Part shown: positions 5,627 through 23,599 of the stretch, one piece after another
Layout: each line of letters starts with the position of its first letter
Numbering within the stretch: position 1 is the stretch's first letter
Virus record (IMG/VR): IMGVR_UViG_3300025305_000145
Location: 1-23,599 of that record
From: a virus
Length of the DNA stretch: 23,599 nt
Reading direction: 5' to 3' (one strand)
Translations under genes and position numbers: made by a program
The notes under the pieces: model-generated
Databases searched by the model: none
Told to the model about the DNA's origin: nothing
Seen by the model: only the letters and a program-made list of their open reading frames with translations

Positions 5627-6912
5627 TACTCAACTGCTCTACCTGTAATTAATAATGGAAACGCACGTTTAGCTTGTTCAGCTAATCCAAACCAGAAAGC
5701 TGCTGCTTGTCGTAAAGCATCTGGGTCTGTAGTTGGACCACCTGACGCTGCAGACAAAGCTAACCCTGTAGCTCTAGCTATAATATATGAATCATCTATT
5801 TCAGTTGTAGCTGTATCAGAACTTAGCAATGCAGGTTTGTCACCACCTGATAGCTTTATCATGTTGTAACCAACTTCTAATTGAGCTCCATCATTTAGAA
5901 TTAAATCTCTGGCACTTCTGTCTATCTTCCATAAATGTTTAGGAAAGATTTGAAATACTGCTGTATCATTCTGTACTACTTTAATATCATCTAGTCGTAC
6001 TTGACACGCACCTAAGTCAGAATCATATTCTAATCCTATAGAGATGATTGCTGTATTAAGTTCTGGGTTAGCTAATTTGATACGTACATAAGTCCATGTG
6101 TCTGCTGATAAGGCTGGAATAGATAACGTCTCTAATGGAGACGCACACGAAGCAGAATCGTCAAGTAATATCTTTAGATTACCAGAAGAAGTAGCAACTG
6201 TACTTTTAACCCAACATTCTAAGTAATCATATTTACTAATATCTTTACTAGTTATAGAGTCAGTTGCTATGTCTCCAGCACTAGCACCACTAGCAATAAC
6301 AAACTTGTTACAACCTGTGCCTTGTTTTTTATCTTCTGTATCTACTGTTACTGTAAAGTCTGAGTCTATTGTTTCATCAAATGCAGAATTACAACTGTGT
6401 AAGATAGTAGAAGTAACAGCACTTCTATAATAAATACGATTAATAATTGATATGTTACTAGGTATATCAAACCTTAAAGTTCTTCCATCTCCAAACAAAG
6501 CTGTATGTGGAGAACTAGACATATCAGGATATTCTATTGGGTCATATGCCTGACCTGTTGCGTCTACAACAGCTTGATTAATAAAATCATTAATAATTGC
6601 AGGGTCATATGGTTCATCATATATTTCATATTCATCAGAACTAGCTACAGTAAAACTAGCATTTTGTTGAAACTGAATAGTGTTATTACTAGCTGTGTAG
6701 TCATTAACATATTGAGTAGTTTGAGTAGTTCCATCACTAGCATCAGTAACAAGAATTAACTTACCATTGTAAGTATCATCACCACCTCTAAACGTATTAA
6801 CGTCTATAAGAGTGTTGTTAGTGCCACCTGTAGCAGTACCAGTTTTTAATGCCCCTAGGTTAAAACCTATAGACTGTCTAATTTGTTTTCGTGTTCTTCC
6901 TTGTACAGGCAT
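5626..6912 (-). CDS. Head-tail adaptor with inserted beta-sandwich domain
   Basis: This 428-aa protein starts at an ATG preceded by GAGG. The N-terminus (GRTRKQIRQSIGFNLG) has the short helix typical of phage head-tail adaptor proteins. It is followed by a small beta domain (residues about 23-100, with GGDDTYNGKLILVTD) and a helix (PAIINDFINQAVVDATG). At the C-terminus come IRATGL-like helices (SYIIARATGLALSAASGG, ALRQAAAFWFGLAEQAKRAFPL). Between them, at about residues 165-320, is a jelly-roll-like segment with four Cys, ending YLECWVKS, TWTYVRIKLAN and CQVRLDDIKVV. It resembles carbohydrate-binding beta-sandwich modules. Adaptors are usually much smaller, so this is likely a domain insertion exposed at the neck. 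The adaptor call rests on N- and C-terminal helices plus gene order. Confidence 0.65.
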   Translation of the reverse strand: MPVQGRTRKQIRQSIGFNLGALKTGTATGGTNNTLIDVNTFRGGDDTYNGKLILVTDASDGTTQTTQYVNDYTASNNTIQFQQNASFTVASSDEYEIYDEPYDPAIINDFINQAVVDATGQAYDPIEYPDMSSSPHTALFGDGRTLRFDIPSNISIINRIYYRSAVTSTILHSCNSAFDETIDSDFTVTVDTEDKKQGTGCNKFVIASGASAGDIATDSITSKDISKYDYLECWVKSTVATSSGNLKILLDDSASCASPLETLSIPALSADTWTYVRIKLANPELNTAIISIGLEYDSDLGACQVRLDDIKVVQNDTAVFQIFPKHLWKIDRSARDLILNDGAQLEVGYNMIKLSGGDKPALLSSDTATTEIDDSYIIARATGLALSAASGGPTTDPDALRQAAAFWFGLAEQAKRAFPLLITGRAVE

Positions 6913-8773: not shown

Positions 8774-9646
8774 TTATGAAGTTGCTAAGTCACCAATTTC
8801 AAATTGTATTGCAGCACCTTTAGTATCATCTAATTCAAAGACACCATAGTCTGCTGTCATTACAACTTCTGTAGCTCTAAGAGAAGCATCTCTCTGTCTT
8901 TCAGTTCTAGTCTCTACGCTAGTAAGAGCTGCTAATGCAGTCTTGTCAGCAATAACACCATACCCTGAATCAACGCTACCTGTCTTTTCAATGTTTCCAT
9001 CTTCAAATATTGGTACACCATTAATTGGTCGTAACCCACTATAGAAGTTAGACAACAAATCTGCTGACCAACCTGATGTAATTTCAGCGTTGTTACCTGC
9101 AGTTGTTGCTGCTTCTTTAGATAGAGTTGCAACAGCATTTGGGTGGTGAACTATATATAGTTGAGAACCAAACTTGTTTGCTTTAGCGTTAGAAACAATA
9201 GCGTGTACGTTAGCAGCATTAAAGTTTCTTCCGTCTGCACCAAGAACAGTTCCACCATTTAAACCTGTGTAAAGAGCAATTACATCTTTATCTTTTTTTC
9301 GAGCCATACCATCACCAAGCTGTCTTCCAATAATTGAGAAAACATTGTCGGCTGCTTGTCTTACAAGTTTATCTGTAAGAATAACTTTAGCACCAACCTC
9401 ACTAGCAGTAAGGTCAATGGTTGTCATTCCAATATCTTCTTCGTCAACAATGTCTATTCCGTCTTGTAGGTCACTCATTGTCATTGAGCCAACTTTAGGA
9501 ACAGTAACTGTCTTAGCACCTGATGGCAAACTAAATTGTTCTATAAGTGCTAACGCAGGTGCGTTATGTTCTTCTGTATATCGAGCTGAACTAAGTATTA
9601 TTCTTTGGGCATTTTCTAAATTCCCAGTTGTTGATGTTTGAGCCAT
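8774..9646 (-). CDS. Major capsid protein (HK97-like fold)
   Basis: This 290-aa protein forms the icosahedral shell. It starts at ATG 9646 with AGGAGGG just upstream, the strongest type of ribosome site, fitting very high expression. The sequence shows a helical N-arm (NLENAQRIILSSARYTEEH), then the typical E-loop/P-domain pattern for this capsid group (SGAKTVTVPKVGSMTMSDLQDG, MTTIDLTASEVGAKVILTDKLV), a spine-helix region (RQLGDGMARKKDKDVIALYTG), then LYIVHHPNAVATLSKE and INGVPIFEDGN before the C-terminal beta hinge (ASLRATEVVMTADYGVFELD). The scaffold gene lies directly upstream. The size and the 'IVHHPNAVATL' helix fit HK97-fold coat proteins of about 290-320 residues. No N-terminal protease-processed delta domain is seen; scaffold is separate. 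Confidence 0.9.
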   Translation of the reverse strand: MAQTSTTGNLENAQRIILSSARYTEEHNAPALALIEQFSLPSGAKTVTVPKVGSMTMSDLQDGIDIVDEEDIGMTTIDLTASEVGAKVILTDKLVRQAADNVFSIIGRQLGDGMARKKDKDVIALYTGLNGGTVLGADGRNFNAANVHAIVSNAKANKFGSQLYIVHHPNAVATLSKEAATTAGNNAEITSGWSADLLSNFYSGLRPINGVPIFEDGNIEKTGSVDSGYGVIADKTALAALTSVETRTERQRDASLRATEVVMTADYGVFELDDTKGAAIQFEIGDLATS

Positions 9647-9727
9647 GATAGCCCTCCTGATTAAATATTAAGTTTTATTTCAATCAGTAACCCTTCGTGC
9701 CACTGTTTTTGTTAAACAACTACTACT

Positions 9728-10540
9728 CTATAAACCTGCAGCCCTTCGTGCTGCGGCGAGTGCGTTAGGTGACCTGTCACCTGAATTGTATTTGTCTAAC
9801 CAACTGTCCTCACTATTAGAAGCACCTGGTGTACTTTGACTACTGTCAAATTCTTGTGGTGGAACTAGCTTTGCTTCTAGTTCTGCTATTCTTGCATCTT
9901 TAGCTCTATTAGCTTTAATGCTTTTAGCTGCTTCTTCCATAGATTGAGGAGAGTCATATTTTTTTAATTCTGCAAGGTCGCTTAACTTTAAGTCATACTT
10001 AGTAGCAAAATGTTCTGCTGCTACAGATTGACCTTGTATATATCTAATTTGGTCTTGCTGTTGTTGTGCTAACTGTGCTTCACGACTTTGTTGTGCCATC
10101 CATTGAGTAGCAATTTGATTTGCTTGGTCTGGTAAATAACCATTCCTTTCTAATTGTTGTGCGTATTGAGATGCTTGTGCTTGAAGTTGAGACTGTTGTT
10201 GCTGTTGTTCATATTCAGCATTTTTAGTTTCAAGTTCTTTTAATCGTTGTTCTGTAGTTTCATTATTTTCTTGAGGTACGCTAGGAGCTTCAGGAGTTTC
10301 TGTAGTAGTGTTTGCTTGTTCAGCTACAGGTTCAACAGGTTTTTCTGTTGTCTCTGTTGGAGTCTCTACATTTTCAGGTGGGGGTGGAGTATCAGTTGTT
10401 TCTTCTGTAGGAGCAGAAGTGTCTTCAAACGTGTTAGCTCCTTCAAACTCTGAAGTTACATCAACTAATGTATCTCCATTGTTATTGTCCTGAGTAACTT
10501 CAGGTGTACTTGTATTGTCTTGTTCTGCCTGATTAACCAT
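9728..10540 (-). CDS. Capsid scaffold protein
   Basis: This 270-aa protein starts at ATG 10540 with GAGG eight bases upstream. Residues 1-95 are acidic and disordered, rich in Thr, Glu, Pro and Asn (many TETP/TTEK-type stretches). About 95-175 is a Gln/Ala-rich coiled coil (EQRLKELETKNAEYEQQQQQ, REAQLAQQQQDQI). After a helical segment (DLKLSDLAELKKYD) the C-terminus is short and basic (NALAAARRAAGL), as expected for the coat-binding tail of podovirus-type scaffolds. Its place immediately before the capsid gene is diagnostic. Scaffold is expected to be lost from mature heads. The boundary between disordered and coil parts is approximate. Confidence 0.85.
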   Translation of the reverse strand: MVNQAEQDNTSTPEVTQDNNNGDTLVDVTSEFEGANTFEDTSAPTEETTDTPPPPENVETPTETTEKPVEPVAEQANTTTETPEAPSVPQENNETTEQRLKELETKNAEYEQQQQQSQLQAQASQYAQQLERNGYLPDQANQIATQWMAQQSREAQLAQQQQDQIRYIQGQSVAAEHFATKYDLKLSDLAELKKYDSPQSMEEAAKSIKANRAKDARIAELEAKLVPPQEFDSSQSTPGASNSEDSWLDKYNSGDRSPNALAAARRAAGL

Positions 10541-22721: not shown

Positions 22722-23129
22722 TTACTGCCAATAACTTGGTTCGTTGTCCTCCATTATAAGATACCATATGTGTTTGTTACTACATTTGTACTTATATTTA
22801 CCTAAATTTGGGTATTTACTAGACTGACAGCGTTCTCCACAACCATCATATGGACATCTCATCTCATATCTCAGAGCAATATTGCCATATCCGTTAGTAA
22901 AAGTCATAACATAGACTAATTTACTGTCTTGTAAACTCTTTTTACCTTTCTTACGAACAACAATCGTATCTACTTCAATACCATCATTAGATTTTTTTCT
23001 TTTTATCTTGTAAGGTGGAGCAGTTGAATAATCAGTATAACCACAAATAATACATTTATACCCATCATCCGTAAGCATAGTTGCCCCCAAACACTTACTA
23101 CAACCTCTTATCTTAACCATAAAAATCAT
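22722..23129 (-). CDS. Zinc-ribbon-like protein, first large gene of the leftward operon
   Basis: This 135-aa protein has two cysteine clusters. The first is CSKC at residues 10-13 with CIICG near residue 26 (C-x2-C...C-x2-C, zinc ribbon). The second is near the C-terminus (CPYDGCGERC, then CSNKHIWYL), fitting a second metal site. The middle is basic (YKIKRKKSNDG, VRKKGKKSLQD). The start could be ATG 23129 or ATG 23120 (MVKIRGC); neither has a clear Shine-Dalgarno. The first overlaps the stop of a 22-codon frame as ATGA. Zinc-ribbon proteins often touch nucleic acids or RNA polymerase, so a late regulator or packaging factor is possible, but unproven. It ends just before the DUF6321-like gene. 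Confidence 0.75.
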   Translation of the reverse strand: MIFMVKIRGCSKCLGATMLTDDGYKCIICGYTDYSTAPPYKIKRKKSNDGIEVDTIVVRKKGKKSLQDSKLVYVMTFTNGYGNIALRYEMRCPYDGCGERCQSSKYPNLGKYKYKCSNKHIWYLIMEDNEPSYWQ

Positions 23130-23143
23130 GTTAGCATAAACGA

Positions 23144-23237
23144 GGTGGAAACGGAAACTAGGGCGTGGTGCTTTGCCTCACCACCATTGACCATTCCGTT
23201 CAGTACGTTGCCCTAGACTAATCTGTGTCTTTCCACC
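23144..23237. other. Cluster of inverted repeats, candidate structured RNA with crossing stems
   Basis: Perfect complementary pairs are: GGTGGAAA (23144-23151) with TTTCCACC (23230-23237); AACGGAA (23150-23156) with TTCCGTT (23194-23200); CTAGGGC (23158-23164) with GCCCTAG (23210-23216); and GTGGTG (23165-23170) with CACCAC (23179-23184). The second and third pairs cross, so they make a pseudoknot in one RNA, with the fourth as an inner hairpin. Complementarity works on either strand. The rightward terminator at 23308-23353 favours plus-strand transcription. Confidence 0.45.
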
Positions 23238-23274
23238 ACCCTTTACACTCTGTGATACAATAACCTCGAATCAT
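23218..23274 (-). CDS. Possible 18-aa micro-gene
   Basis: ATG at 23274-23272 is preceded by a perfect AGGAG seven bases upstream and followed by 17 more codons and a TAG. The product would be MIRGYCITECKGWWKDTD, with two Cys and two Trp. The ribosome site is better than that of the following zinc-ribbon gene. It could be a leader peptide or the first gene of the leftward operon. It lies over part of the inverted-repeat cluster, so it may be chance. Confidence 0.3.
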   Translation of the reverse strand: MIRGYCITECKGWWKDTD

Positions 23275-23307
23275 TAGTTATCTCCTATCAACTTTTTGAT
23301 TCCCTCT

Positions 23308-23353
23308 TAAACCTCCATAAGGATAGCTTCCAACTTATGGGGGTTTATTTTTT
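23308..23353 (+). terminator. Rightward rho-independent terminator
   Basis: A 14-bp stem (23308-23321 with 23334-23347) contains one G-U pair, has a 12-base loop and is followed by six T (23348-23353). The stem core is CCTCCATAAG against CTTATGGGGG. The T-run is only on the plus strand, so it stops rightward transcripts. Since all genes left of it point leftward, the transcript it ends is probably a non-coding RNA from 23140-23350. Confidence 0.8.
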
Positions 23354-23370
23354 CAGGAATTATTCTTCCC

Positions 23371-23400
23371 TTGACAGTATTAATCTGTAATTTGTATAAT
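23371..23400 (+). promoter_or_regulatory. Consensus sigma-70 promoter, rightward
   Basis: TTGACA (23371-23376) and TATAAT (23395-23400) are both perfect six of six, 18 bases apart. Start of transcription is expected near 23407. It points out of the window, away from the structural operon, and probably drives early or regulatory genes to the right. Four palindromic elements lie directly after it, so it is likely repressible. Confidence 0.85.
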
Positions 23401-23415
23401 TTATCTCCCAGGAAC

Positions 23416-23491
23416 TAGTAACTAAAATTACTAAAGTTAATAAAAAAGAATAGAATAGAATAGTTACTAAGATACTAGTAACTAGTTACTA
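23416..23491. repeat. Four copies of the 9-base palindrome TAGTWACTA
   Basis: Copies are at 23416-23424 (TAGTAACTA), 23461-23469 (TAGTTACTA), 23476-23484 (TAGTAACTA) and 23483-23491 (TAGTTACTA). The last two overlap by two bases and form a 14-base perfect palindrome AGTAACTAGTTACT. Their place just downstream of the consensus promoter suits an operator array for a dimeric repressor. Iterons of a replication origin are an alternative. Confidence 0.6.
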
Positions 23492-23517
23492 TTCTTTCTC
23501 TTTTTGTATTTTTTAAA
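23458..23517 (+). terminator. Possible attenuator hairpin after the rightward promoter
   Basis: GAATAGTTACTA (23458-23469) pairs with TAGTTACTATTC (23483-23494) over 12 positions with one T-T mismatch, and is followed by a T-rich tract (TTTCTC, five T, then six T at 23509-23514). Transcripts from 23407 could stop after about 100 bases. The stem is AT-rich and weak, and the same bases make up the palindromic elements, so this reading is uncertain. Confidence 0.35.
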
Positions 23518-23530
23518 ATATACAGTACCC

Positions 23531-23552: not shown

Positions 23553-23599
23553 TCCCACCCTGCTCTTTTATAGAAATTAAATATATACAGGTATAGACC

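Follow-up and report, generated by a model that had tools for sequence, protein, structure and literature searches.

A double-pseudoknotted RNA with a covarying fold at the gene divergence point of uncultured marine tailed phages

Identification and fold of RNA-1

In the 23,599-nucleotide stretch of viral DNA analysed here (positions 1-23,599 of IMG/VR virus record IMGVR_UViG_3300025305_000145; hereafter the window, to which coordinates refer), we identified at positions 23144-23237 an element, RNA-1, which comparison with related phages marks as almost certainly a real, selected RNA with the fold described below. Taken overall, the best explanation of this segment is a lineage-specific, compact, double-pseudoknotted noncoding RNA that is most likely free in trans, a reading to which we give somewhat better than even chances. 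An earlier note on this DNA had proposed here a rightward structured noncoding RNA of about 200 bases belonging to no named class. The structured RNA itself has held up on covariation, promoter spacing and the lack of an Rfam match, whereas the single unit of that length is probably two. The parts of RNA-1 in the window are these:

23144 to 23237, plus strand: RNA-1, five-helix pseudoknotted core with covariation; predicted transcription start at 23144; single copy per genome; no Rfam match
23144 to 23151, plus strand: P1 5' strand GGTGGAAA; two-sided changes in 8/8 pairs, 96.9% of cells paired
23152 to 23154, plus strand: PK1 5' strand CGG, conserved core of a 6-7 base-pair stem in the earlier note; 94.7% of cells paired
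23158 to 23164, plus strand: P3 5' strand CTAGGGC, crossing PK1 and P5; two-sided changes in 7/7 pairs
23165 to 23184, plus strand: P4 hairpin GTGGTG-CTTTGCCT-CACCAC with a conserved UGCC loop, its U and G invariant; two-sided changes in 6/6 pairs
23196 to 23198, plus strand: PK1 3' strand CCG; CGG/CCG exchanged for AGG/CCU and others in relatives
23201 to 23203, plus strand: P5 5' strand CAG, a helix missed by the earlier note and swapped wholesale in relatives
23210 to 23216, plus strand: P3 3' strand GCCCTAG, with covariation
23217 to 23221, plus strand: unpaired ACUAA, nearly invariant, each position varying in no more than one of 36-37 rows
23223 to 23225, plus strand: P5 3' strand CTG, partner of 23201-23203
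23230 to 23237, plus strand: P1 3' strand TTTCCACC, partner of 23144-23151

The four perfect stems reported in the earlier note, two of them crossing, all lie where that note had placed them within 23144-23237. Among these, the 7-base-pair AACGGAA stem (23150-23156 with 23194-23200) crosses the CTAGGGC stem, and the GTGGTG hairpin pairs 23165-23170 with 23179-23184. Such an amount of perfect pairing within 96 nucleotides (nt) was reached by just 1 of 2000 dinucleotide shuffles. For 23135-23355, the minimum free energy z-score is lower on the plus strand (-4.3) than on the minus strand (-1.8). Single-strand folding energy does not separate the two strands in every relative, which is expected of a pseudoknotted fold.

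Across the lineage, five helices are kept, namely the outer stem P1, the two short crossed stems PK1 and P5, the long crossing stem P3, and the hairpin P4, which directly follows the P3 5' strand. Their order can be written P1(PK1[P3{P4()PK1]P5<P3}P5>)P1, such that inside P1 the loops of the PK1 and P5 hairpins are joined by P3. Here, the near-invariant positions are mostly unpaired, and comprise AA after PK1, UG.C in the P4 loop, GACC before the PK1 3' strand, and ACUAA before the P5 3' strand. Among the members, the stems vary while this unpaired core stays nearly constant. P5 is found in relatives as CCAG/CUGG, CUGG/CCAG, GCAG/CUGC, ACGA/UCGU, and CUAG/CUAG.

Covariation in related phages

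Using the adjacent gene, the DNA pattern of the RNA-1 core, and the terminase protein TerL as queries, we recovered 104 sequences, among them the window and two reference phages. For the covariation analysis, we used 40 distinct sequences and the 28 pairs of the five helices in an alignment that leans to the covariance model. The 28 pairs are 92.9% paired in this set, with two-sided compensatory changes in 27. Cells with two-sided change number 252 versus 67 in shuffles, and the covariation score is 0.590, as against 0.215 when shuffled and 0.085-0.112 when slid. The stems, whose loss in related phages the earlier note had named as decisive against its proposal, are kept and covary, with two-sided changes in all five helices.

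Because of the lean in the alignment, two independent checks were made. RNAalifold, when run on a sequence-only MAFFT alignment, picks out P1, PK1, and P5, with two-sided changes in 10 of 12 pairs. A clade kept outside training (loci L073, L078, L084, L085, L098, and L111) is scored at 48.8-55.2 bits by the structure model, as against 23.7-30.0 bits by a model of sequence alone made from identical rows.

Distribution of RNA-1

Iterated nhmmer searches placed RNA-1 in 87 of the 104 loci, though several of these are overlapping pieces of one contig and the count of distinct sequences (about 45-50) is the better measure. RNA-1 is single-copy in every record where the model matched, and identity among members falls as low as 35% in the aligned core. 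A covariance model from 11 members retrieves distant members, most at E-values of 1e-6 to 1e-22. Most of the loci without a match stop short of the RNA-1 site; L092, L097, and L103 extend further than the other unmatched loci and gave no convincing RNA-1 match. Two weak candidates were rejected: a match in L126 has neither the palindrome described below nor the core motifs, and one at 10466-10555 of L069 (E 0.46) was taken as chance.

Outside the lineage, neither RNA-1 nor the promoter palindrome is present in a sister lineage whose TerL is 73-77% identical. The nearest TerL relatives in cellular genomes lie on contigs of Chloroflexota/Dehalococcoidia metagenome-assembled genomes (L125, L126, and L127; 54-57% identity), where RNA-1 was not found, and the exact RNA-1 core is absent from the cellular genome contigs searched as host chromosomes. 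In cultured phages, blastn with the core finds no RNA-1, and their TerL relatives are below 60% identity. The lineage is one of uncultured marine tailed phages without a cultured relative. The TerL similarities to cellular contigs give a weak hint of Chloroflexota as the host phylum. The regions examined in Pelagiphage Hodr and HTVC103P contain no RNA-1, and Hodr shares with the lineage just the neighbouring gene for a DUF6321 protein. A long hairpin in the divergent intergenic region of Hodr itself (L023:5866-5965), GGGAGAGAATAATAACAA...TTGTTATTATCTTCC, is unrelated.

A probable palindromic promoter shared with the leftward operon

RNA-1 lies at the point of divergence between the leftward structural and packaging genes and a rightward gene cluster. 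Directly upstream are two further features:

23128 to 23137, both strands: palindromic extended -10 promoter ATGTTAGCAT, reading TGnTAnnAT each way; candidate start for RNA-1 rightward and for the structural operon leftward
23118 to 23129, minus strand: start of the first gene of the leftward structural operon (135 amino acids, Cys-rich); likely ATG at 23118-23120, 7 nt from the palindrome

The motif TGnTAnnAT is found upstream of every RNA-1 match, and the full palindrome ATGnTAnCAT occurs in 40 of 45 distinct loci; where it is broken (the L064 group, L071, and L079), the rightward half is retained. From the end of the palindrome to the first base of P1 there are 6 nt in most loci, which is the canonical spacing between a -10 element and its start. 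On this anatomy, RNA-1 is very probably transcribed from the palindrome. On the other side, the palindrome is separated from the leftward ATG by 6-7 nt in most loci (7 nt in the window and 6 nt in most other clades), and the structural-operon mRNA is probably leaderless. The simplest reading of these spacings is that the palindrome would serve as a bidirectional promoter for both the leaderless structural mRNA and RNA-1.

Bacteria are known to have bidirectional promoters of pseudo-symmetric sequence (PMC12825309), and those of Escherichia coli likewise start divergent transcripts from a pseudo-symmetrical -10 region (PMC12825309, PMC10268837). The phage palindrome differs from these in being fully symmetrical and extended (ATGnTAnCAT), in belonging to an uncultured phage lineage, and in that it would initiate an open reading frame (ORF) at the ATG to its left and a structured RNA to its right. 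A symmetric extended -10 thus apparently serves a leaderless structural operon one way and a structured RNA the other, in phages without a cultured relative. Since the RNA-1 start is predicted to the base, probing and function are directly testable.

A probable second small RNA and the downstream context

Downstream of RNA-1, the window has three more features on the same strand:

23253 to 23261, plus strand: second extended -10 TGATACAAT, putative promoter of RNA-2
23268 to 23353, plus strand: RNA-2, a small-RNA-like unit; 5' hairpin with loop ATCTCCTATC, resembling an anti-Shine-Dalgarno (SD) sequence, then an intrinsic terminator; fold z-score -4.8
23308 to 23353, plus strand: intrinsic terminator, T-run on the plus strand only; conserved in the window clade

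The strong terminator described in the earlier note, with its T-run on the plus strand only, is real by consensus (stem 23308-23321/23334-23347), and within the window clade compensating changes restore the pairing of its stem (AACCTCCATAAG/CTTATGGGGGTT, ACCCCTATAAGT/ACTTATAGGGGT, and GCCTTATAGGAC/GTCTTATAAGGC). In the same clade, a hairpin with the loop A(U/C)CUCCUAU stands between the second -10 and the terminator, giving a conserved order of promoter, 5' hairpin, and intrinsic terminator, as in a small RNA. The ACCUCC/AUCUCC of this loop resembles the 3' end of 16S rRNA. Moreover, anti-SD-like [AT][CT]CTCC is present in the stretch downstream of RNA-1 in 23 of 39 distinct loci versus 6.4 expected. 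From these features, the terminator and the anti-SD hairpin most likely constitute a second small RNA, RNA-2, which would be separately promoted and would pair with Shine-Dalgarno sequences.

What follows RNA-1 differs by clade, and can be RNA-2 with its terminator, further promoter-hairpin units, an ORF of 56-57 amino acids, or nothing. In L083, L084, L090, L098, and L099, tandem units of extended -10, hairpin, and terminator are found, apparently small-RNA arrays, and a GGGCTGG...CCAGCCC element recurs in several clades, beginning soon after its own -10. The 56-57 amino acid ORF, which has an upstream SD sequence and a hydrophobic C-terminus, lies directly 3' of RNA-1 in one clade only (L064-L067 and L079; minus strand at L064:3473-3640 and L079:549-719), the L064 and L079 versions being about 49% identical.

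The earlier note had joined the paired region and the terminator into one structured RNA, and had taken the terminator to require a rightward transcript of which this RNA was the simplest explanation. As one functional unit, RNA-1, linker, and terminator would measure about 215 nt. The parts do share a strand, no terminator stands between them, and the whole region folds with a z-score of -4.3. However, a second extended -10 (TGnTAnAAT) intervenes in 25 of 40 distinct loci, the anti-SD hairpin precedes the terminator as a separate element in the window clade, and two groups, L053/L057/L062 and L064-L067/L079, keep RNA-1 but have neither RNA-2 nor terminator, the latter group having the small gene instead. 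The terminator is therefore not tied to RNA-1, and we regard one joint functional RNA as possible yet doubtful, while read-through molecules of RNA-1 and RNA-2 may occur.

RNA-1 as a proposed free RNA and its alternatives

Under the favoured reading, host RNA polymerase would initiate at the palindromic extended -10 in both directions, rightward for RNA-1 from 23144 and leftward for the leaderless structural operon, so that the RNA and the operon would be made simultaneously. With its 5' end locked in P1, RNA-1 would be a stable RNA, and its conserved single-stranded core, kept in place by the knot, would bind a phage or host protein or ribonucleoprotein. Trans action is preferred because the downstream context is not conserved, although for this part of the reading, taken singly, we see the chances as evenly balanced. 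Several points weigh against it. RNA-1 lacks its own terminator, an unusual feature in a free small RNA, and its position in the L064/L079 clade, immediately before the small ORF with its SD sequence, is that expected of a leader. Its expression is deduced from promoter anatomy, and no partner or target was found. Pairing alone is also weak evidence of strand, with G-U against A-C counts (32 versus 18) set aside as a strand criterion as not decisive. More tentatively, RNA-1 could represent a new functional class, either a self-cleaving ribozyme or a binder of RNA polymerase or of the packaging or translation machinery, in which AA, UGCC, GACC, and ACUAA within a kissing-loop double-pseudoknot core would form the active site.

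The best of the cis-acting alternatives is an antiterminator like the put RNA of phage HK022, since RNA-1 is placed at a transcription start and ahead of terminators; acting in cis from the head of an early rightward transcript, it would modify RNA polymerase to pass the terminator. HK022 putL lies just downstream of an early promoter, is about 70 nt long, and contains a -10-like element (PMC9378689). In comparison, RNA-1 begins at its predicted start with the first P1 base (early timing being assumed), has a compact RNA-only fold, and is followed by a -10-like element, terminators, and an anti-restriction/DNA-modification cluster. Like put, which precedes terminators and early genes and acts without a dedicated protein (PMC9378689), RNA-1 in such a role would need no protein of this kind. 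However, put is described with two stem-loops, no pseudoknot being mentioned, and two copies per genome (PMC9378689), while RNA-1 is a single-copy, five-helix double pseudoknot. Moreover, several clades have no terminator after RNA-1, the rightward genes have their own promoter, and the shared palindrome links RNA-1 to the structural genes instead. This function accordingly appears rather unlikely.

Less probable still is a regulatory leader of the following gene, whether riboswitch-like or protein-binding. The ORF close after P1 in L064-L067 and L079 is membrane-protein-like, UUCCU in the P1 3' strand could pair with its SD sequence, and the invariant unpaired core recalls ligand-binding RNAs. 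Yet this ORF is confined to one clade and elsewhere no gene follows closely, and in the window clade P1 shows no apparent way of pairing with the downstream terminator instead.

A new class of self-cleaving ribozyme that would trim the rightward transcript by means of the invariant unpaired core also seems improbable. RNA-1 does resemble a ribozyme in being small and double-pseudoknotted, with variable stems and invariant single-stranded bases, and ribozymes like that of hepatitis delta virus (HDV) occur in phages (PMC10879173). However, no Rfam ribozyme matches even permissively, and with transcription starting at P1 there is nothing to remove at the 5' end. Finally, an element working as DNA (an origin, cos/pac site, or protein-binding palindrome) would suit the adjoining TerS/TerL genes and iteron-like noncoding region, but is very improbable, as two stems that cross cannot be extruded at the same time as DNA cruciforms and the start-site spacing and invariant loop bases suit RNA.

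Comparison with known structured RNAs

Rfam 15 covariance scans of the window and eight relatives returned no matches at gathering thresholds, and at permissive thresholds the window and relatives gave nothing credible, in agreement with the earlier view that the element matches no RNA class. We found no description of RNA-1 in the literature covered, from which subscription journals are largely absent. Few structured RNAs of phages are known, and RNA-1 adds to them a well-defined class whose pseudoknot topology is fixed by covariation.

The earlier note had also pointed to an HDV-like crossing of stems while claiming no ribozyme, and the likeness in fold is limited to this crossing order: PK1 crosses P3 around hairpin P4, both supported by covariation. 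In HDV-like ribozymes, P1 is long (about 7 base pairs) and the cleavage site is directly 5' of it. By contrast, the conserved crossing stem PK1 of RNA-1 has 3-4 base pairs, the outer helix P1 occupies the 5' side, P5 is an extra helix, and the invariant ACUAA comes before the P5 3' strand and not at an equivalent of J4/2, where HDV-like ribozymes have their catalytic C. No HDV family matches at gathering or permissive E-values. The HDV-like/theta ribozymes of phages are likewise small, with a 5' stem, second stem, hairpin, and two 3' strands in nested crossing order (PMC10879173), but RNA-1 has no tRNA nearby; no tRNA or tmRNA was found in the window.

Among other phage RNAs, cabRNA of staphylococcal phages (PMC10686824) is also a structured RNA from the terminase neighbourhood, while RNA-1 differs in being intergenic, divergent, and under its own selection. 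The manA and wcaG motifs (PMC2864571) are structured RNAs of marine metagenomes and phages that came, like RNA-1, from comparative genomics. They are candidate regulatory elements of metabolic genes, found also in T4-like cyanophages, and no Rfam match ties RNA-1 to them.

Neighbouring genes and noncoding sequence

Leftward from 23129, the window encodes the Cys-rich 135 amino acid protein, the DUF6321 protein, TerS, and TerL. The earlier statement that no gene points right holds for the window insofar as no rightward gene of annotated size is present, but misses a rightward cluster that lies past the window edge in relatives and a promoter reading into it:

23371 to 23400, plus strand: sigma-70 promoter TTGACA-N18-TATAAT, 12/12 consensus positions; kept in most of the window clade

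This cluster includes ArdC-like anti-restriction and Mom-like DNA-modification proteins; in the close relative L017, which has both, parts of the cluster lie at 5872-6858 and 9170-9850. Next to the promoter, the AT-rich stretch 23401-23520 has many overlapping TAGTAACTA/TAGTTACTA repeats, is the densest inverted-repeat region of the window, and has similar repeats in relatives; it is possibly an origin. At 23565-23590 and in relatives, TTTTATAGAAATTAAATATA is followed by GGGTATA or GGTATAGACCAAT, an arrangement that recurs in the noncoding region of several clades.
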